Of a stretch of DNA of 20,250 nt, positions 1,481-14,726 are shown in pieces. Position 1 is the stretch's first letter. Every line of letters begins with the position of its first letter. The position numbers and the translations under genes are program-made. The notes beneath the pieces were generated by a model. It was not told where the DNA came from, did not search any database, and saw only the letters and a list, made by a program, of their open reading frames with translations. The DNA lies in IMG/VR virus record IMGVR_UViG_3300015360_000243, positions 1 through 20,250 of that record. The stretch is one strand, 5' to 3'. Source of the DNA: a virus.

Positions 1481-3883
1481 TCAGCCTCCCGTCATTGTGA
1501 CAAGTCGGTCGAGCGCCGCGCTTGCCGCCATTCGACCGTCAGACACTCCGTTGATCTGGATGGCGCCACTCTCGACAAGGAGGCCACGGCCATCGCCGCC
1601 GTTAGTGGGTGGCGGCTGCTTGCCCTGTGCGATGGCGGAGAGCGCACGAACCCGTGGGTCTACTCGGTCAAGGGGTCGGTCCAGCGGAACGATGGCCTCT
1701 GGCCCGGCTTCGCCGTAGACCCCGTACGTGGCACGCGTTGCGATGGTTCCCGCTGCGTTGAACTGAGTGCGAGTGCCGCCACCGCCGCCACCGCCCAAGC
1801 CGCTCGGGACCCTCACGTTCGTTCCGTTGAGGAGATTGATCAGGTCGATGAGGCGCTGAACCGCTCCAATGGGGCCCGAAAACGCGCTGACGAAGACGCC
1901 TGCTGTGAACTGAACGAGAGTGACAAAGGTGTCGAAATCCTTCATCGCCTTAGCAAAGTCAAAGTCCTCGATGAACTCCGCAAGCTTCTTGATCATCGCC
2001 TCGGTGGCTGGGACGGCGACCTCAATAAGCCACCTGGCGAACTGGTCGATCGCGGGGATGACTTCCTGCTCAATGATTCGAGCAAGCTCCTGCGGGCTGG
2101 GAAGCAGGTCAAGGATCGTGTCCGCGAGGTCCTCGATCGCTGGGGCAAGGGCTGCAAACGCGCCGTCGAGCGCCTCCTGCACGAGCACGAAGATCTTTTC
2201 CATGCTCTCGGCAAAGGGAGCGAAATACTCGGTTGCCCTCTCGACGGCGATCGACACAAGCTCGAGCAGAAACTTGAATGGGGTGAGTAGGATGCCGATG
2301 AGCTCCAGCTCAGCCGTCAGCGGCTTGAGCCCAGCCGTAGAGAGCGTGTTGAGTATCGAGAACAGCGGGTCGAGCAGGTCAAGGATTGGGACGATAGCGT
2401 TGCCGAGGTCGTTGAGGACCTGGGCGATCAGACCAAAGGCGTCAAGCTCGCCGAGGACGTCAAGGATCTTGAAGAGAAAGGGGGTCGCCCCCGAGAGGTT
2501 CTCAAGGAAGTCCTCCGTGCGCTTGACCGAGTCCTCGTCGACGAGGCCAGCGAGCCCCTTGCCGATGTCCCCGACGAGATCCCCAAACTTTCGCAGCACG
2601 CGCTCGCCATTGCTGAACCACTCGGCAATAGCGTTCTGCCCCCCGACCGATTCCGTGAAGTCCTTGAAGTCAGAGGTTACCTCGTCGATGTATTCCACGA
2701 AGTTCTGGACAAAGGGCTGCGCGATGATCAGGATATTGGCGACGGCTGCACCGATGTTGCCGATCGTCTGAACGATGGGTCCGATCTGGTCCTTGAAGCC
2801 GTCAAAGAGCTCGCTGATCTTCGCGATCCCCTCGGGTCCAGTCAGGTCGGTGAGCAGGCCCGCGAATGCGTTTCCTAGCGCCGCCGAGAAGCTGTCGAAC
2901 TGCGGAGCGAGTGCCTCAAGCGCGGCCGGAATAGACTCGAGGCCGACGGTGAGCGGGGTGAAGAACCCGCGCTCGATCCCCTCGCTTGCCTTGGAGAATG
3001 CGGCCGGAAGACCCGAGATCGCCCTGACGTAGTTGGGGTACGCGGCAGTGAGTGCCTGTAGGTTGGCGAGCTGCTTCTGCTCGGCCTCCGAGAGCGTTTC
3101 GGTTAGGGACTTTGCCAGCAGCTCGTTTTGATCCTTGAGGTTCCCGGTCTTTTCGCTCACGCTCGCAATCGCGGCGGCAACGAACCCGAGCCCCGTGACC
3201 GCCGGCGCGAGGGAGAGCGCCAAGGTCGTCAGGCCCGCCCCAAGCGCGGACCCGAGGACCGCAATCTGCTCTCCACCGGCGGCGATGGCTGCTGTGATGA
3301 TGAGCGCTTGGCGGACGTTGAAGGAAAGCCGCTTCCACGCACTGCCGTAGCCGTCATTGGACTTGGTGCCTCGCTCTATTTCTCTCCGGTTGGTCTCGCT
3401 TGCCGCTGTCAGCTCGTCTAGCTGGCTCTCGGCCTCGCGCGCCTTGCCGAGCCACTGATTCAGTGTGCCCCCAAACCGCCCCCAGGTCTCGTTGTTGAGG
3501 TTTCCACTGTCCGAGAGCTCCTGCAGACTCAGTCGCAAGTCCTTCGCGGCGTCATCGACGCGATCAAAGTTCCTGGAGAAGTTATCAAGCCCTTCCGGCG
3601 TGAGAAACGCGTCAGCAACCTTGGCGGCAAGACCACTGAGCCGAGACTCAATCGCCACTTCCATCGCATCGGAGATCCTGAAACCAGCGAGCTTGCCGTC
3701 GGCCGACATGCGCGCGAGTACACCACGACCGAACGGGGTGAACTTCTCCGCGAAGCGCTTTGTCGCCGCAGTCCCGGCCGCGTCTCCTGCGCCCTCACCG
3801 ATCTGCCGCGCGCGTGCGGGGAGCTTTCTTCCGTCGAAGTCGACGAGAAAATCGACCCTGCCGATGGTAGTCGTGATCCTCAC
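1481..3883 (-). CDS. Tape measure protein
   Basis: An 800-residue protein that would set tail length and occupy the tail lumen before DNA ejection. The largest tail gene sits directly after the frameshifted chaperones, the standard place for a tape measure. Residues about 192-243 are a long hydrophobic Ala/Gly/Leu-rich stretch that could span a membrane. The middle is a series of amphipathic helical repeats rich in Leu, Ile, Phe and acidic residues. The C-terminal region has a Gly run and then GEAGPEAIVPLDR, a motif common near the ends of siphophage tape measures. Using the family rule of about 0.15 nm per residue, the tail would be roughly 120 nm (inference). The start is GTG at 3883 with GGAGGGG immediately before it. 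A palindrome is centred 46 bases upstream. Confidence 0.92.
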   Translation of the reverse strand: MRITTTIGRVDFLVDFDGRKLPARARQIGEGAGDAAGTAATKRFAEKFTPFGRGVLARMSADGKLAGFRISDAMEVAIESRLSGLAAKVADAFLTPEGLDNFSRNFDRVDDAAKDLRLSLQELSDSGNLNNETWGRFGGTLNQWLGKAREAESQLDELTAASETNRREIERGTKSNDGYGSAWKRLSFNVRQALIITAAIAAGGEQIAVLGSALGAGLTTLALSLAPAVTGLGFVAAAIASVSEKTGNLKDQNELLAKSLTETLSEAEQKQLANLQALTAAYPNYVRAISGLPAAFSKASEGIERGFFTPLTVGLESIPAALEALAPQFDSFSAALGNAFAGLLTDLTGPEGIAKISELFDGFKDQIGPIVQTIGNIGAAVANILIIAQPFVQNFVEYIDEVTSDFKDFTESVGGQNAIAEWFSNGERVLRKFGDLVGDIGKGLAGLVDEDSVKRTEDFLENLSGATPFLFKILDVLGELDAFGLIAQVLNDLGNAIVPILDLLDPLFSILNTLSTAGLKPLTAELELIGILLTPFKFLLELVSIAVERATEYFAPFAESMEKIFVLVQEALDGAFAALAPAIEDLADTILDLLPSPQELARIIEQEVIPAIDQFARWLIEVAVPATEAMIKKLAEFIEDFDFAKAMKDFDTFVTLVQFTAGVFVSAFSGPIGAVQRLIDLINLLNGTNVRVPSGLGGGGGGGTRTQFNAAGTIATRATYGVYGEAGPEAIVPLDRPLDRVDPRVRALSAIAQGKQPPPTNGGDGRGLLVESGAIQINGVSDGRMAASAALDRLVTMTGG

Positions 3884-3920
3884 CCCCTCCGGTGTTCTGT
3901 GCCGCTTTCGAGAATACCGT

Positions 3921-3937
3921 TCTCTAGGACCTAGAGA
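3921..3937. promoter_or_regulatory. Palindrome copy 1 (TCTCTAGGACCTAGAGA), before tape measure
   Basis: A perfect 17 bp inverted repeat about a central A (plus strand), 46 bases from its centre to the tape measure GTG. It is one of five copies of the core CTCTAGGWCCTAGAG in the window. On the coding strand its first TAG (3933-3931) is the stop codon of the -1 frame of the tail assembly chaperone. With one central base it is better suited to a dimeric DNA-binding protein than to an RNA hairpin, and no T-tract follows. Function is inferred, not shown. Confidence 0.7.
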
Positions 3938-6407: not shown

Positions 6408-6438
6408 GGTGGCGTCTCTAGGACCTAGAGGCGCCACC
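6408..6438. promoter_or_regulatory. Palindrome copy 2 with extended arms, between major tail and adaptor genes
   Basis: The CTCTAGGACCTAGAG core (6416-6430, centre 6423) is extended outward by GGTGGCG on the left and CGCCACC on the right, with a single T/G mismatch, giving an inverted repeat of about 15 bp per arm. It fills the gap between the TAA of the major tail gene (6445) and the adaptor start (6375). As RNA it would make a strong hairpin, so it could act as an attenuator or transcript-end protector as well as a protein site. No T-tract follows on either side. Confidence 0.7.
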
Positions 6439-8386: not shown

Positions 8387-10114
8387 TTAGGAAACGCCAG
8401 CGCCAAGTACGTTGGCGCCAGTGAGGCCGTACGGGTTGAGGTGGAGCTCGTAGAGCGCGCCCTCGCCGCAGGTGTTGGCAACAAGCAGGCTCTCCTCGAA
8501 GAACGCCGCGATGTACTCGTTCTTCTCGAGGTTGGCCTGGTCGTAGATCGCGTCGAGACGGATGATCTCGTCTCCACCGCGAACGAACGTTCCGGGAACC
8601 CAGACGCCGAAGCGGGCGTTGGCGCGCAGGAGCAGGTTGCTGACAACACCGTTGAGGTCCTGTCCCTCCCAGTCCTTGACGTACTGAGTGCGGATACCGC
8701 GCGTGCGGAACCAGCTCTCGATCTGGGCGTCCGAGATGTTGAACGGGTCGATACCGAGGTAGGACCGGCGCGACAGCTCTGCACGGATGTGCGACTTGAT
8801 CCAGCTCGGGAACATGAACTCCAGAACCTGGTTGTCGGCCAAGCTGTACTTCTGGATGAACTGGAGCCGGATCATTTCGATCGTCTGCAGAAGGTCAGCG
8901 GTCGAGCCACCGTACTCGGGAGCATTGATCACTGAGCCAAGGCTGGCGAGCACGCGGTTGATCACGCTGCGGTTGACGTACTTCTGGTAGGCGACAAGCG
9001 ACTTTTCCATGTAGTCGTCGAGCAGCTCGGGGAACGAGTTGCGCAGCGGGATCGGAGCCTTGGCGCCCATGCCGATCGAGTCCAGACGAATGTCCTGCCA
9101 CGTCGGGACCTGGATCATGCGCATCGGCTTGGTCGGCCGGGCGATCATCTGAGCCTCGGTGTAGATGAAGCTTCCGTCTGCATCGTTGAAGATGGCAGAG
9201 AAGTCGATGCCCTTGGTGAAGTTGATGCCACCACGGCGGACGGTGATCGACGGGAGCGTGAGCCCACCGCTGAACGTTGCCCACTGGCACAGCTCGTACA
9301 GGTTCTCCGACGGGGTGACCCAGCCGTTGTACGCTGCCGCCGTCAGTGCGTCGACGCCGTCCTCGCCCCGGAAGGAACGAGCTTCCCGCGCGATGTTCAT
9401 GATCTTCTCGAACGTGGATTCTGGCGTGTCGGTCTCGGTGATCGCTGCGCGACTGGCGTCGTTCAGCGGGCGCTTGATCGTCGCAACCCCGAATGCGCTC
9501 GGGGAGCTCTCGACGTTCTTGGCGCCACGGCCGACCGAGCGAATCATTGAGGTGCGAGCCTTGAATGCCTCGGCAAGACCACGGATGCCGTCAAGCTCGG
9601 AGCCGCCGGCAAAGCCCTTGACGTCCGGTGCGACGGTGATGATCGCCTTGGCCGCTGCGGGCTCTGGTGTTTCGAGAGCTGCTGCGGCCTGCGCGGCGCG
9701 GCGCTTCACGGCGGCGCGAGCGGAGACGCTCTGGCGACGAGCGGCAGAAGCAACGAGTGCGTCTTCCTTCTCTTCGGCCGGCTCTTCCTCTGCCTCGGGG
9801 TCTTTGGCATCCTCCTCGGCGGGGTCAGCCGCCGGGTCTGCCTCGTCCTCGTCCTCGTCGATCCCGGCCTTTGCGGCGTCGAGACGAGCGTTGCGCTCTT
9901 CAGCGGCTTCGTCGCGAGCTTTCTGCTCGCCCTTGATCTCGGTGACGCCACCCTTGAGCTCTTCGAGACGCTCAAGCTGGTCGTCGGTGATCTCGTCGTT
10001 TTCGATCTTCACAAGCTCGCTGTACTCGTCGAGCGCGTAGTTCTTCTGAACTTCGAGCTCGTCGTCAGCGACACCCGCCCAGCCACCTTCTGGCTTTGCG
10101 AACTTTGGGGACAT
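8387..10114 (-). CDS. Major capsid protein with fused N-terminal scaffold-like domain
   Basis: A 575-residue protein starting at ATG 10114, with GGAG seven bases upstream. The frame is open to 10441 but that part is unlike protein and covers the 44-residue gene and the hairpin, so I reject it. Residues 1-150 are helical and highly charged: LERLEELKGGVTEIKGEQ, then a strongly acidic stretch at 85-118, then Ala/Arg-rich helix. This is what a scaffolding (delta) domain looks like. From about 165 the sequence reads as an HK97-fold capsid subunit, with features such as RRGGINFTKGIDF, RPTKPMRMIQVPTW, SRRSYLGIDPFNISDAQIESW and FVRGGDEIIRLDAIYDQ. ALVASA at 119-124 is a candidate maturation cleavage site. 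GC hairpins flank the gene on both sides, suggesting an individually controlled transcript. Confidence 0.88.
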   Translation of the reverse strand: MSPKFAKPEGGWAGVADDELEVQKNYALDEYSELVKIENDEITDDQLERLEELKGGVTEIKGEQKARDEAAEERNARLDAAKAGIDEDEDEADPAADPAEEDAKDPEAEEEPAEEKEDALVASAARRQSVSARAAVKRRAAQAAAALETPEPAAAKAIITVAPDVKGFAGGSELDGIRGLAEAFKARTSMIRSVGRGAKNVESSPSAFGVATIKRPLNDASRAAITETDTPESTFEKIMNIAREARSFRGEDGVDALTAAAYNGWVTPSENLYELCQWATFSGGLTLPSITVRRGGINFTKGIDFSAIFNDADGSFIYTEAQMIARPTKPMRMIQVPTWQDIRLDSIGMGAKAPIPLRNSFPELLDDYMEKSLVAYQKYVNRSVINRVLASLGSVINAPEYGGSTADLLQTIEMIRLQFIQKYSLADNQVLEFMFPSWIKSHIRAELSRRSYLGIDPFNISDAQIESWFRTRGIRTQYVKDWEGQDLNGVVSNLLLRANARFGVWVPGTFVRGGDEIIRLDAIYDQANLEKNEYIAAFFEESLLVANTCGEGALYELHLNPYGLTGANVLGAGVS

Positions 10115-10272
10115 TTCGATACTCCTTGCGTCGGAACTAGCTGTGGGCGAAAACCTGTATTTCGGAAGAGGTGCGCCTTGCTGTTCTACGACAGAAGTGC
10201 CGGTGGTTCTACTGAGAGTAGGTTGCCACAGTTTTTGCTCGGGAACAACCTCGTGCTCGACGACACGCCGAC

Positions 10273-10293
10273 GTTCTCTAGGTCCTAGAGAAC
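10273..10293. promoter_or_regulatory. Palindrome copy 3, upstream of the capsid gene
   Basis: The longest perfect copy of the family: the core CTCTAGGTCCTAGAG (10276-10290, centre 10283) is extended by GTT on the left and AAC on the right to a 21 bp perfect inverted repeat. Its central base is T on the plus strand, whereas the other four copies have A. It abuts the GC hairpin at 10294-10335, and its centre is 169 bases from the capsid start, much farther than at the other sites. Confidence 0.72.
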
Positions 10294-10476: not shown

Positions 10477-12891
10477 TCAGTCCCCTAGATCCCTCGCCTG
10501 CGCCAGTCGTGCGGCTCGCCGACCCTGGCCCTCGGCGATCAGCTCGGGGTCACGCACCAAACTGAGGCGCTCTTTGCGATCGGCGCGGTACTCGAGCTCG
10601 TCAGCGACAACCCGCCCAATCGCGAGGAGCGTGTCGCCGTCGTCGACGCCAAGAGAGGCGGTGATTGCGGTGCGCTGACGACCCACCTTGTGTGGCGCCA
10701 GCATCCCCGCGCTCGACAGCAGGGAGAGCTGCTGTCCGCCGTCCATCGCAAAGGCGGGGTAGCGAGGAGCTGCATACCCCGGCGTGTTGACGGCAAGGAT
10801 TGCGATCAGCTCAAGGCTCCCGGTCATGCCGCGTCGCCAGTCACCCGAGAGGGCGGAGGCGCGAAGCACCTTGATGTCCTCGGGGGTTGCGTTGTCTCGC
10901 ACCTTGCCGGAGAACCAGATCCCGATGCTGTCCTCGCCGATCGCTGCGTCTGCGATCGAGTGGCCGGTGTCGTCGTAGTGCGCCGCCGCCTTCTGCATGG
11001 TGGTCCTCAAGCCAGCGTGCCCAGTCCACATGACGATGCGGCCGGTGTTCTTGAAGCCGGCCTCGGTGAGCACCTGGCCAGTGGCGTAGTAGGCGTAGCC
11101 GCTCGCCGAGGTCGGAGGCATGACGCACTTCTCGCCGATGCCAAGGTGGCACGTCCCCCAGAGCGCGAGGTGCCCGAAGATGCGGCCCTCCTCATCGACG
11201 GTGATCGGCGTGATCTTGGTGAAGTTCGGGTTCTCGAAGAACCGAGCCCTTTCCTTGACCGCTGAGGCGGCAGAGGCAACAAGGGCAAAGCCCTCGGAGG
11301 CCGCCGCAGCGCCCCGCTTGAGGTCACCGCGCTTGCGACCCGGCCACATCCCGACTGCTTCCTTGTGGAGATTCGCGCACGTCCCCGCGAGGAACCGGGG
11401 GTTGACGTACTTTGCGAGCTGCAGGCGGCAACGATTGAAGTCGCCAGAAACGCCCCAGCGAATCTTGGCCGCTCCCTCGCCGCGCACCCAGTAGGAGCGC
11501 AGTCGCTGCGTTGCTCGCGGGTTGGTGATCCAGCCCGGCCCATCCTTGGTGCCGGGAGCAAATGCGCTCGCGACCAAGGCGTCGTGCTTCTCGTAGGTGG
11601 CAAAGAACGCGTCGCTGTCGTCAGACTCCAGCCACTCGATCATCTCGTCGAGCGTGTCGAACTCCGCCGATGCCTTGACGTCTTCGCTGTCGGCGACGTC
11701 CTCTTCCATGTCCGGCTCGCCGACAGCAGATGGATCACGCATGGGCTCCTCGAAGTCCGGGCCCAAGGCGATATACGCCTCGGCAAACGCCGGAATCTGG
11801 ACCATGGATGCAGACCGGATTCGGCCTGCCGTGAAGTGTGTGAGCTTGACCTCGCCGCCAAACAGCATTGCGAGCATGTCCTCTTCGTCGGAGTCTTCGC
11901 TCTCCTCGTACTCGACCTCGACTTCCGGCGAATCGACGTCGACCGAAACTCCGCCGAGCATCCCAAACACAAGGCCGTCGATGACCTCGTTGGCCTCGGG
12001 GATGTTCGTGTTGAACATTCCGCGCGCGCGATGCTGATTGCCGTCAAGCCACATCTCGTCGATCCGGCCGATGGTAACCGAGCCCTTGTGGCCCTCGTCG
12101 CTGAGCCGCTGATACGTCAGGGGCAGCGGGAAGGCGTCGTACGTCAGCGCGCCGACGTCGAACTGGCGCTTGTCACCGGTGGCGACGCCCTCAACAACCA
12201 GAACGCCATGCCACGGCACCTCGTTGCCTGAGTCGACGAACTCATCCTCGGAGACATCCTCGTCCATGAGGTCTCCCTCAGCGGGACGCTCCTCCTCGGC
12301 GTCTGCCGCGAAGCTCGTAGCTCTCGTTCCCATTTGTGGTCCTCCTGTGGTTGCAAGCAAACAGCGGCAGTTGATCCAGATCTCCGGGGGGCCGACCGGC
12401 TCTCCGGGAAACTGGAGCTGGAAACCACCCACTGCAAAGGTTCCCACGATCGGCACGGTCTGTCCATCGACCGCGCGGTGCGTGCTGCGCGTGGCATCGT
12501 CGTCCATGGCGATCCATGTCTTGGTCTCGCGGTCGCCGTCCCGGCCCGCAGCGAGGGTTGCCGAGTTCACGGTGTACGTGCCGACCCATCGTGAGACGCG
12601 ATCAACCTCGCCCCGCGTCGGGGGGTCGCTGGGCTGGGCGGTCTTCGCAAGGCTCTCGCCAAGCTTGACAAGGAAGCGCTGCAGCGCTTGGCCGTCAGCG
12701 TCACCGGTGGGCGACTCGCTCTCAAATATCTCGCTCCACAGCACGCCAGCGCCGTCGACGATCGGGGAATACCACGAGCCCCCGCTGTGCTGGGCAAGCG
12801 CATCCTCGACGATTGGACGGATCTCGTCGTCGAAATTGTTGAGCCGCGCGCTGCGTTCGGCGGCGAACTGGACGAGCCTCACGACCGCCAC
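10477..12891 (-). CDS. MuF-like minor head protein fused to prohead protease modules
   Basis: An 804-residue multidomain head morphogenesis protein. Residues 105-180 form a MuF-type domain: KTWIAMDDDATRSTHRAVDGQ, FPGEPVGPP and the closing INCRC. Residues 222-380 resemble an HK97-family prohead protease, with His268 in GHKG and Ser316 in GGVSVDVDS as candidate catalytic residues. An acidic linker (380-430) follows. Residues 445-520 form a conserved-looking unit (GPGWITNP, WGVSGDFNRC, CANLHKEAVGMWPG). Residues 565-710 hold a second protease-like unit seen in actinobacterial phages: GHLALWGTCH, WTGHAGLRT, IGEDSIGIWFSG, RASALSGDWR. ALVASA occurs at 438 and 536, each before one of the last two modules. 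GTG at 12891 overlaps the portal end by 13 bases; a GTG at 12882 (GTGA overlap) is equally plausible. Catalysis is inferred. Confidence 0.85.
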   Translation of the reverse strand: MAVVRLVQFAAERSARLNNFDDEIRPIVEDALAQHSGGSWYSPIVDGAGVLWSEIFESESPTGDADGQALQRFLVKLGESLAKTAQPSDPPTRGEVDRVSRWVGTYTVNSATLAAGRDGDRETKTWIAMDDDATRSTHRAVDGQTVPIVGTFAVGGFQLQFPGEPVGPPEIWINCRCLLATTGGPQMGTRATSFAADAEEERPAEGDLMDEDVSEDEFVDSGNEVPWHGVLVVEGVATGDKRQFDVGALTYDAFPLPLTYQRLSDEGHKGSVTIGRIDEMWLDGNQHRARGMFNTNIPEANEVIDGLVFGMLGGVSVDVDSPEVEVEYEESEDSDEEDMLAMLFGGEVKLTHFTAGRIRSASMVQIPAFAEAYIALGPDFEEPMRDPSAVGEPDMEEDVADSEDVKASAEFDTLDEMIEWLESDDSDAFFATYEKHDALVASAFAPGTKDGPGWITNPRATQRLRSYWVRGEGAAKIRWGVSGDFNRCRLQLAKYVNPRFLAGTCANLHKEAVGMWPGRKRGDLKRGAAAASEGFALVASAASAVKERARFFENPNFTKITPITVDEEGRIFGHLALWGTCHLGIGEKCVMPPTSASGYAYYATGQVLTEAGFKNTGRIVMWTGHAGLRTTMQKAAAHYDDTGHSIADAAIGEDSIGIWFSGKVRDNATPEDIKVLRASALSGDWRRGMTGSLELIAILAVNTPGYAAPRYPAFAMDGGQQLSLLSSAGMLAPHKVGRQRTAITASLGVDDGDTLLAIGRVVADELEYRADRKERLSLVRDPELIAEGQGRRAARLAQARDLGD

Positions 12892-14666
12892 CGGCGCCCA
12901 AGATACTTCGCGAGGGTCTTGCGGTCGTAGGGCTGCTGGTTCGAGATGAGTAGGCGCGCGTAGCTGTCGAGAGCAGCCTCGAGCTCCACCACATTCACAC
13001 TGGTCGGCAGCGTGAGTCGGTCGAGATTCGGCCAGGCGTCGGCAAGGACGTGGTCAAGCTGGCTTTTCGAGAGTGTCACGTACTGGTAGCGATCCATGGC
13101 CGGGACCCCGGGAGGGATCCCCTGAATCGCCGAAGACGTCGACTTGAGTCGGTTGCCGGCACGAGTCAGCGCGTGGAAGAGCGCCGCCTCCCCGCTGGCC
13201 AAGAGCGAGGCGCTGTCCGCATCCTCTTGGGTATCCGGGATGTCCTGCGTTGGGTGCTCCTCAAGAGAGCGCGGCAGTGGCCGCAAGCCCCTTTCCTTGT
13301 CGGCGTCGGGGCCGGTGGGAATCGTGATGTCGACGCCAAGCTGTCGAGCAGCCTCGGCCACCAACTCGGGGGAGGGAGAACCTTGCGCAAGCTTCATGAG
13401 GAGCCAAGTCTTGCGCTCGTCCTCGTCCATGACGTCGGTCTCCTCGAACCCGTTCTCGCGACGAAGCGTTGCCCCGCTGATCTCCCCGCGCTCGTGGAGC
13501 TCCATCGCCTCTTTCGAGCGGTTCGGGCGCAGACGCATTTCCGTCGAGTCGGCCTCAATTTCATACAGCTTGGACTCTTCCGGGTCCATCCCGTATTCAT
13601 CCTCCAGAACGACGCGGAGGTAATCAGTGGTCAGGGCCTGTGTCAGCAGCGCCAACAGCGGCTCGGAGAACGACTTGATCAGTGAGTCCTCGATCTGCCA
13701 TGCGCCCCAGTGATTGACGTCGGCGGTCCCGAGTAGCGCCTCGGGCGGCATGTCCATGCCAAGGGCAAGGCGACGGATTGCCTCGTCGCGCAGCTTGGCG
13801 GCGTTTTCGTCGAGCTCGCTCCACAGTGTCAGGTGGTCGATCTTATCAAGGAACTCTCCCGGCGCCTGGAGGATCGTGGGAACTCGCGAGGAGGCAGAGG
13901 TCCGATCTTGCTTTGCCGCCGCCATGGTTGCCGCGAGCTCGGCGATGAAACCGTTGACCCCTTGCTGAGCGACGGTGGTGCCGTCCACATTCGTTGTCTG
14001 GGTCGGGAACACGACCTCGGTCGGGATCTTAAGGAAGCCGGCACCGCTGAGCCGAGAATCGAGCTGAGCACTGACGTACTGGGTCAGCTCTTGGATCTGG
14101 CTCAGGATCGGCAGCAGCGGGCGCGTCGGGCAGTCCGAGAGCCAGCGCTTGCGGGGGTGCGGGCGCCAGAAGCGAATGAGAAGCATGTCGTCGATCGAGA
14201 TCTTCTCTTTGCTGATGCTGTAGGTTTCGTCGTCTTCCCACTTCACCTCGGTCGCCGCAAGAGTCGACCACTCCCTGTCCTCCTCTTCGCCTTGAGCGAA
14301 GATATAGCCCTCCCCGGCCACCGTCATGTGGATGCCACCTTGGCGAAGGAACTCGCCGTGCTGATCGGGCCCACCGTAGAACTTGTTGAGGACCTCGACC
14401 GCATCCCCCGTGGTCTGCATCTCACCCTTGTACTTCACGATTAGCTTGGCCCGGGAGAGGTTGTTTCCTACCCACTGGACCCCGTAGTGGAAAACCTCGA
14501 TGGTGTCGTACCAGAACCACGCCTCTTCCTGCCAGTCCTGCTTTTCCACCTTGCGAGACGGAGTCGCGGCCACCGGGTTTCGACCGAGGTTGCGTGCCGA
14601 CGCGATCAGGCCATTGGCGAAAGTCTCTGCGGCCAGCTTTCCGCGTACAGTGCGGCTACGCGGCAT
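12879..14666 (-). CDS. Portal protein
   Basis: A 595-residue protein that would form the dodecameric DNA entry ring at one capsid vertex and dock the terminase. ATG at 14666 is preceded by GGGGAGA. Typical phage portal features are visible: an N-terminal helical region with FWYDTIEVFHYGVQWVGNNLSRA, a central QELTQYVSAQLDSRLSG, and the portal signature GMDMPPEALLG followed by NHWGAWQIEDSLIKS (about residues 310-335). The C-terminal third is helical and Glu/Asp-rich (NGFEETDVMDEDERK, EALFHALTRAGNRLKS). It lies between the modification cassette and the MuF/protease gene, which it overlaps. A palindrome is centred 52 bases upstream, so it may begin its own transcript. Confidence 0.9.
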   Translation of the reverse strand: MPRSRTVRGKLAAETFANGLIASARNLGRNPVAATPSRKVEKQDWQEEAWFWYDTIEVFHYGVQWVGNNLSRAKLIVKYKGEMQTTGDAVEVLNKFYGGPDQHGEFLRQGGIHMTVAGEGYIFAQGEEEDREWSTLAATEVKWEDDETYSISKEKISIDDMLLIRFWRPHPRKRWLSDCPTRPLLPILSQIQELTQYVSAQLDSRLSGAGFLKIPTEVVFPTQTTNVDGTTVAQQGVNGFIAELAATMAAAKQDRTSASSRVPTILQAPGEFLDKIDHLTLWSELDENAAKLRDEAIRRLALGMDMPPEALLGTADVNHWGAWQIEDSLIKSFSEPLLALLTQALTTDYLRVVLEDEYGMDPEESKLYEIEADSTEMRLRPNRSKEAMELHERGEISGATLRRENGFEETDVMDEDERKTWLLMKLAQGSPSPELVAEAARQLGVDITIPTGPDADKERGLRPLPRSLEEHPTQDIPDTQEDADSASLLASGEAALFHALTRAGNRLKSTSSAIQGIPPGVPAMDRYQYVTLSKSQLDHVLADAWPNLDRLTLPTSVNVVELEAALDSYARLLISNQQPYDRKTLAKYLGRRWRS

Positions 14667-14709
14667 AGTGTTCTCCCCTGGTATGTGACGGCATCATTCT
14701 GACAGAGAT

Positions 14710-14726
14710 TCTCTAGGACCTAGAGA
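14710..14726. promoter_or_regulatory. Palindrome copy 4, before the portal gene
   Basis: TCTCTAGGACCTAGAGA is a perfect 17 bp inverted repeat centred at 14718, 52 bases before the portal ATG. Its right-hand CTA (14720-14722) is the TAG stop of the preceding glycosyltransferase on the coding strand. The 43 bases between the palindrome and the portal start hold only the ribosome site and no clear promoter. Confidence 0.7.

Follow-up and report, generated by a model that had tools for sequence, protein, structure and literature searches.

A short motif at domain boundaries of phage head proteins is a probable cleavage motif of a polyprotein-borne head-maturation protease

The hexapeptide ALVASA, which occurs three times in the head proteins of a virus, is very probably one version of a motif, shared across the family, at which a head-maturation protease contained in a polyprotein recognises and cuts its substrates. 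Comparison of the head proteins with those of relatives, together with structure prediction, gives the motif roughly as [A/S/P]-[L/V/I]-[V/T/A]-A-[S/A]-[A/G], and the scissile bond would most likely be that between A and S (LVA↓SA), which fits the consensus of herpesvirus proteases, (V/L/I)-x-A↓S. We infer cleavage from the positions of the motif, its conservation, its restriction to head proteins, the disorder of the sites and an apparent resemblance of folds. A shared cleavage motif of a prohead protease had been proposed in the initial annotation of this DNA, and both lines of analysis support the proposal. Prohead proteolysis as a system is already known; the proposed recognition motif is new, and its A↓S character would be herpesvirus-like. 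The window analysed is the whole viral record of 20,250 bases, and anything said beyond it is taken from relatives.

Results

Three copies of ALVASA lie between modules of two head proteins

The genes for the portal, the 804-residue polyprotein and the major capsid protein follow one another in this order (Table 1). The 804-residue protein is a member of the actinophage 'capsid maturation protease and MuF-like fusion' proteins. All three copies of ALVASA reported in the initial annotation, two in the polyprotein and one in the capsid protein, were found in place and, as it had stated, the peptide rather than the DNA is shared, since the codons differ among the copies. A repeat at the DNA level as the source of the three copies was ruled out by these differing codons together with the unrelated flanks. 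Among the 15 window proteins examined, ALVASA was the only hexapeptide found three times, and any hexapeptide triple appeared in just 1 of 500 per-protein shuffles.

Table 1. Head genes, predicted domains and motif copies in the window (capsid residue numbers start from the ATG at 10114)
Feature	Position	Strand	Residues, context and basis
Portal protein gene (595 aa)	12879..14666	(-)	phrog_776, E 2e-127
MuF / PR1 / basic module / PR2 polyprotein gene (804 aa)	10477..12891	(-)	PHROGs and phage annotation; layout by model
Major capsid protein gene (575 aa), N-terminal helical delta domain	8387..10114	(-)	NCBIfam MCP_Sipho, E 3e-124; HK97-fold matches
PR1, putative S78-like prohead protease domain	11746..12228	(-)	residues 222-382; by model; S316/H268; homologue L037 matches Pfam S78
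PR2, second protease-like domain	10786..11262	(-)	residues 544-702; by model; H625, S682, H638; phrog_18402
ALVASA copy 1	11563..11580	(-)	polyprotein residues 438-443; linker between PR1 and small basic module; GCCTTGGTCGCGAGCGCA; exact match
ALVASA copy 2	11269..11286	(-)	polyprotein residues 536-541; linker ahead of PR2; GCCCTTGTTGCCTCTGCC; exact match
ALVASA copy 3	9743..9760	(-)	capsid residues 119-124; junction of acidic delta domain and shell fold; GCACTCGTTGCTTCTGCC; exact match
LIASA, candidate N-terminal portal cleavage site	14595..14609	(-)	portal residues 20-24; context NGLIASARNLG
Motif-like LLSSAG and ITAS	10654..10722	(-)	polyprotein residues 724-729 and 743-746; linker between PR2 and C-terminal helices
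LLASG, weaker candidate	13191..13205	(-)	portal residues 488-492

The AlphaFold model of the polyprotein, built from a 31-sequence alignment, consists of MuF (1-184), PR1, a small helical module (447-519), PR2 and C-terminal helices (756-804), separated by low-confidence segments at 185-221, 383-408, 432-446, 520-543 and 703-755. Of these segments, 432-446 holds the first ALVASA copy and 520-543 the second. The capsid model has a delta (scaffold-like) domain made of helices 17-35 and 44-85, and the shell fold follows after a linker; residues 87-131, which hold ALVASA, are of low confidence and predicted to be disordered. The position of ALVASA between modules, another point of the initial annotation, is thus borne out by the models, with the polyprotein copies in linkers that separate predicted folded domains and the capsid copy between the helical domain and the shell. 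The alignments behind the models drew on sequences from the contig scans alone. Foldseek matched the capsid model to the HK97, T5 and Che8 capsids, and the protein is an HK97-type shell with a delta domain and a flexible linker. The N-terminus of the polyprotein is a MuF-like minor capsid protein domain: Phage_Mu_F is matched with E 2e-4 (below the curated cut-off) in the window protein, and in 26 of 31 homologues at E ≤ 0.01 (best 4.5e-7). Sequence searches of the PDB gave no convincing homologue, hence no solved N-terminus that could be used.

The polyprotein motif lies only a few residues ahead of PR2, and a similar sequence begins the shell domain in capsids, as might be seen if the motif were a short structural element, a strand or a cap, of the adjacent folded domain. 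We regard this as very unlikely, because the models are least confident precisely at the three ALVASA copies and predict no strand at any of them, and because folds unrelated to one another (portal, helical module, PR2 and capsid) all have this sequence in front of them.

The polyprotein has two protease-like domains

Two protease-like domains, each with a conserved serine and histidine, are seen in the polyprotein (window 10786-12228). PR2 matches phrog_18402, 'head maturation protease', and of the two domains it is the one to which phage genes called capsid maturation protease have their matches. The Pfam Peptidase_S78 profile is matched over PR1 by the homologue L037 (21.8 bits against a cut-off of 21), and the window protein itself gave no match to it. 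In the 31-row alignment the candidate catalytic residues of PR2 are kept in 31 of 31 (S682 and H625) and 30 of 31 rows (H638); those of PR1 in 31 (S316) and 25 (H268). A profile comparison of PR1 with PR2 gave no evidence of sequence homology (probability 0.1 per cent). The 35 best PDB matches of the polyprotein model in Foldseek were herpesvirus proteases (EBV, PRV, HCMV, HSV-2, KSHV and VZV) and T4 gp21, with modest E values (best 2e-3) that apply to the whole model, the matching domain not being reported. Judged by sequence, either PR1 or PR2 is a candidate for the acting domain.

The motif is kept in relatives

Relatives were gathered from 24 annotated phages, 80 viral contigs and 21 bacterial genome contigs; the phage records matching the protease numbered 1,006, some of them by one module only, and those matching the capsid 841. 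Single-protein scans of viral contigs with the window proteins found no relative, and aligned capsids proved too divergent to scan with. The idea that the motif recurs at the same places in related phages held for a degenerate motif and failed for the exact hexapeptide: in 80-odd non-redundant relatives the core [LVI]-[VTAL]-A-[SA]-[AG] stands both where the acidic delta domain of the capsid ends and ahead of the C-terminal protease domain. As to the strict form, [LIV][VTAL]AS[AG], 38 of 80 non-redundant sequences had it in the linker leading to PR2 (shuffle mean 0.8, maximum 5), as did 32 of 75 capsids ahead of the shell fold (shuffle mean 1.5, maximum 5). When A or G was allowed for S, the counts rose to 77 of 80 and 75 of 75, with shuffle means of 31.5 and 50.6; we relied on the strict forms since the looser pattern is frequent by chance.

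Relatives share ancestry and their counts are not independent events, so that the argument rests on the motif being kept while its flanks diverge. Across 18 divergent capsids that were aligned, the motif's Ala (A122) never varies, whereas the flanks do. At the position of copy 1 many relatives carry the motif, in forms such as LVASAFAPGTH, ILASAFAPGTK and LTASAFAPGTH. Some relatives, for example most of the Arthrobacter phages examined, lack the site ahead of the 'GDFNRC' module. Some linkers hold two copies, such as LVASAAPLFSLVASADP in L003. In many relatives the S of the motif is an A, hence A↓S would not be strict.

The motif was found in phages of many actinobacterial genera and, in a related form, in the cyanobacterial phage Pam4. 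This breadth of hosts argues against the sites being cut by a host protease and not by the phage enzyme. A-X-A-like sites do resemble those of some host proteases, but the motif here has no secretion signal context and adjoins a protease of what may be the fold that cuts A↓S in herpesviruses, and cleavage by the host is most improbable.

The portal carries the motif as well. Within the first 45 residues, [LIV][VTLMIA]AS[AG] was found in 25 of 59 non-redundant portals (shuffle mean 0.36, maximum 4), in relatives about 10-30 residues from the N-terminus, and most other portals have A in place of S, or Met or Phe at the first position of the motif. The LIASA site of the window portal was absent from the initial annotation. 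For the portal LLASG, which may be part of a helix, a minority of relatives have partial counterparts, which lie some 100-120 residues ahead of the C-terminus. Where the window polyprotein has LLSSAG and ITAS, between PR2 and the C-terminal helices, relatives have sequences of the LAASG/LVAAG type.

The motif is specific to head proteins

An EM motif finder was run separately on capsids, pre-PR2 linkers and portals. It returned E-P-V-[TAV]-A-[SA]-A for the capsids, [AST]-L-[VT]-A-[SA]-A for the pre-PR2 linkers and, after exclusion of a conserved W-Q-x-x-A-W element, [NR]-[SA]-L-[VT]-A-[SA]-A for the portals. A first portal search over whole N-termini had been captured by that structural element, and a search restricted to the sequence upstream of it recovered the LVASA motif. 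Log-likelihoods for capsid, pre-PR2 and portal were 257, 397 and 363, respectively, against about 79-95, 97-112 and 91-106 in shuffled windows, and the mean column correlations among the three matrices were 0.58-0.79 with no shift. One motif is, in this way, common to several head proteins (capsid, portal and polyprotein) at their domain boundaries.

We then counted [LIV][VTLMIA]AS[AG] in whole proteins. Observed and shuffle-expected numbers were 147 and 8.0 for the protease, 60 and 6.4 for the capsid, and 43 and 4.9 for the portal, an excess of 9-18 times expectation. In terminase and tail-side proteins the motif was not enriched, being absent or at background: terminase had 0 against 1.4 expected, the gene-6445 family 0 against 1.5 and the gene-5548 family 0 against 0.6 (expected counts this small make the zeros weaker evidence than the excess in head proteins), and the gene-7552 family had 8 against 2.8, inside the shuffle range (maximum 11). 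Of the 60 motif copies counted in 31 polyproteins, 57 fall within linkers and 3 within folded domains. Such a restriction to head proteins, seen at the level of sequence, is what would be expected of a substrate motif of a protease confined to the prohead.

These proteins are Ala-rich, LVAA-like sequences are frequent in them, and some copies are structural (LELVAALAVN, SLVAAGGWC), all of which would suit an accident of Ala-rich, high-GC proteins combined with the common ancestry of the loci. Ala-rich composition, however, does not explain the pattern, because the shuffles keep composition (0.8 against 38 seen before PR2) and because other proteins of the same genomes served as controls, among which the equally high-GC terminase and tail-side proteins lack the strict motif; nor does an accident account for a motif that stays while its flanks diverge. 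For the motif as a class the sequence comparison refutes such an origin, which has next to no probability, although a single copy in the window could have arisen by chance.

Like docking peptides, the motif is found where three head components are disordered, and it has a hydrophobic core. It might then be a docking or assembly peptide that binds head components or the protease, rather than a scissile site. We consider this unlikely: the motif is alike in the capsid scaffold domain, in the portal and in the linkers of the protease itself, exactly at module boundaries; its small-small A-S/A core is typical of scissile sites and matches herpesvirus substrates; and some linkers hold it twice.

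A basic module and inserted enzyme domains

The middle module of the polyprotein (442-539) has a pI of 10.9, and the same module is strongly basic in nearly all relatives, with a median pI of 10.1 in 31 of them. Motif-like sequences stand on both sides of it in 18 of 31 relatives. The stretch between the ALVASA copies (window 11335-11553) matches phrog_6439, a family of unknown function with a profile length of 82 residues. Between MuF and PR1, a number of relatives (L001-L009, L011, L063, L072 and others) have a domain of the 2'-5' RNA ligase/2H-phosphoesterase type, often bordered by [LI]TAA-type sequences. In one case, L079, a Nudix domain lies upstream of PR1 at residues 101-230, and no [LI]TAA-type flanks were found around it. 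The window polyprotein has neither the 2H-type nor the Nudix domain. It is possible that these domains are virion-borne enzymes.

We put forward tentatively, as a reading that is rather less likely to hold than to fail, that the polyprotein carries cargo in addition to acting as a protease, and that its paired motifs would free the basic protein (442-539), and in other phages 2H-type enzymes, in the head, to be ejected with the DNA into the host, with an A↓S specificity in common with herpesvirus proteases. Release of cargo inside the head is a possible step, and the proposed cargo may be likened to the processed internal proteins of T4.

Other features of the window

A palindrome, TCTCTAGG[A/T]CCTAGAGA, occurs in five copies (3918-3937, 6412-6431, 10272-10291, 14707-14726 and 16754-16773), two of which differ at an end. 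The starts at 3883, 6375 and 14666 each have a copy about 35-41 bp upstream, and the capsid start has one at a distance of 158 bp. The palindrome is a candidate late-gene regulatory element. Two genes lie between terminase and portal (15352-16818 and 14720-15445), and for the larger there are glycosyltransferase matches, which are weak and do not reach the curated cut-offs. A ParB-N-like domain, just under its curated cut-off, was seen upstream of the terminase region (window 19606-20250).

Discussion

In the mechanism that we propose, the protease would enter the prohead inside the polyprotein, become active and, after assembly, cut unstructured linkers at LVA↓SA-like sites. Such cuts would remove the acidic helical delta (scaffold) domain of 13.4 kDa from the capsid protein (residues 1-122), trim about 22 basic residues off the N-terminus of the portal, and split the polyprotein into MuF with PR1, the small basic module (442-539) and PR2, of 48.0, 10.6 and 28.4 kDa, respectively; PR2 would probably also be freed from the C-terminal helical tail. 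Capsids of some relatives (for example L026, L027, L073 and L077) have a second motif-like sequence, [LI][VTI]A[AS]-A[DN]VPG[FI], where the shell domain starts, about 40 residues past the first. This sequence may mark a second cut or form a structural strand, and LTAA-ADVPGF could be the real, or final, capsid cut in those phages. The window capsid lacks it and has IITVAPDVKGF at this place.

The maturational protease of herpesviruses is made as a fusion with other head components; it releases itself and cleaves the scaffold (PMC4498786), and the HCMV protease cuts its substrate VVNASS between A and S (PMC3853728). The likeness to herpesvirus assemblin (R-site, M-site) lies in the fused protease, the probable A↓S bond after V/L/I-x and perhaps the fold, for which assemblin-type proteases are the best PDB match. 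In contrast to herpesviruses, the window has the delta domain on the capsid protein itself, MuF and a further protease-like domain belong to its polyprotein, and its portal also carries the motif. HK97 gp4/gp5 resembles the window in the N-terminal helical delta domain followed by the HK97 shell, and perhaps in PR1, which is S78-like in a homologue, but HK97 is without the MuF fusion and PR1 of the window itself falls short of Pfam S78. We know of no motif common to portal, protease and capsid in HK97.

The protease gp245 of the giant phage SPN3US cleaves a number of head proteins after A-X-E and prefers Ser in the position that follows (PMC10052503). As is proposed here for the window, T4 gp21 and SPN3US gp245 cut one short motif across head proteins in the prohead, and T4 gp21 is among the fold matches of the polyprotein model. 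However, A-X-E requires Glu, whereas the motif here is [LVI]-x-A-[S/A], and both of these proteases are separate genes, unlike the fused protease of the window. The lambda protease belongs to the unrelated ClpP-like family, and the lambda portal gpB undergoes N-terminal trimming of about 20 residues. Portal cleavage is what lambda has in common with the scheme proposed here, and the protease family is the difference. As the lambda head is assembled, its connector protein is cut (PMC3185693).

Fusions of MuF and capsid maturation protease have already been described in actinophages, for example in Microbacterium cluster EG (PMC7302621), and those of this type share the gene family and gene order of the window. 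Our literature search found no published cleavage motif for the actinophage fusions, no report of head-protein cut sites in these phages, and no protein-chemistry, N-terminal or virion mass-spectrometry data for this protease/capsid family.

This protease and capsid are found in hundreds of sequenced phages, most of them actinophages, and for all of these phages the motif predicts the mature N-termini of capsid, portal and protease. If true, the motif would be a phage counterpart to the A↓S cleavage of herpesviruses, and would bear on the proposed common origin of head assembly in tailed phages and herpesviruses.
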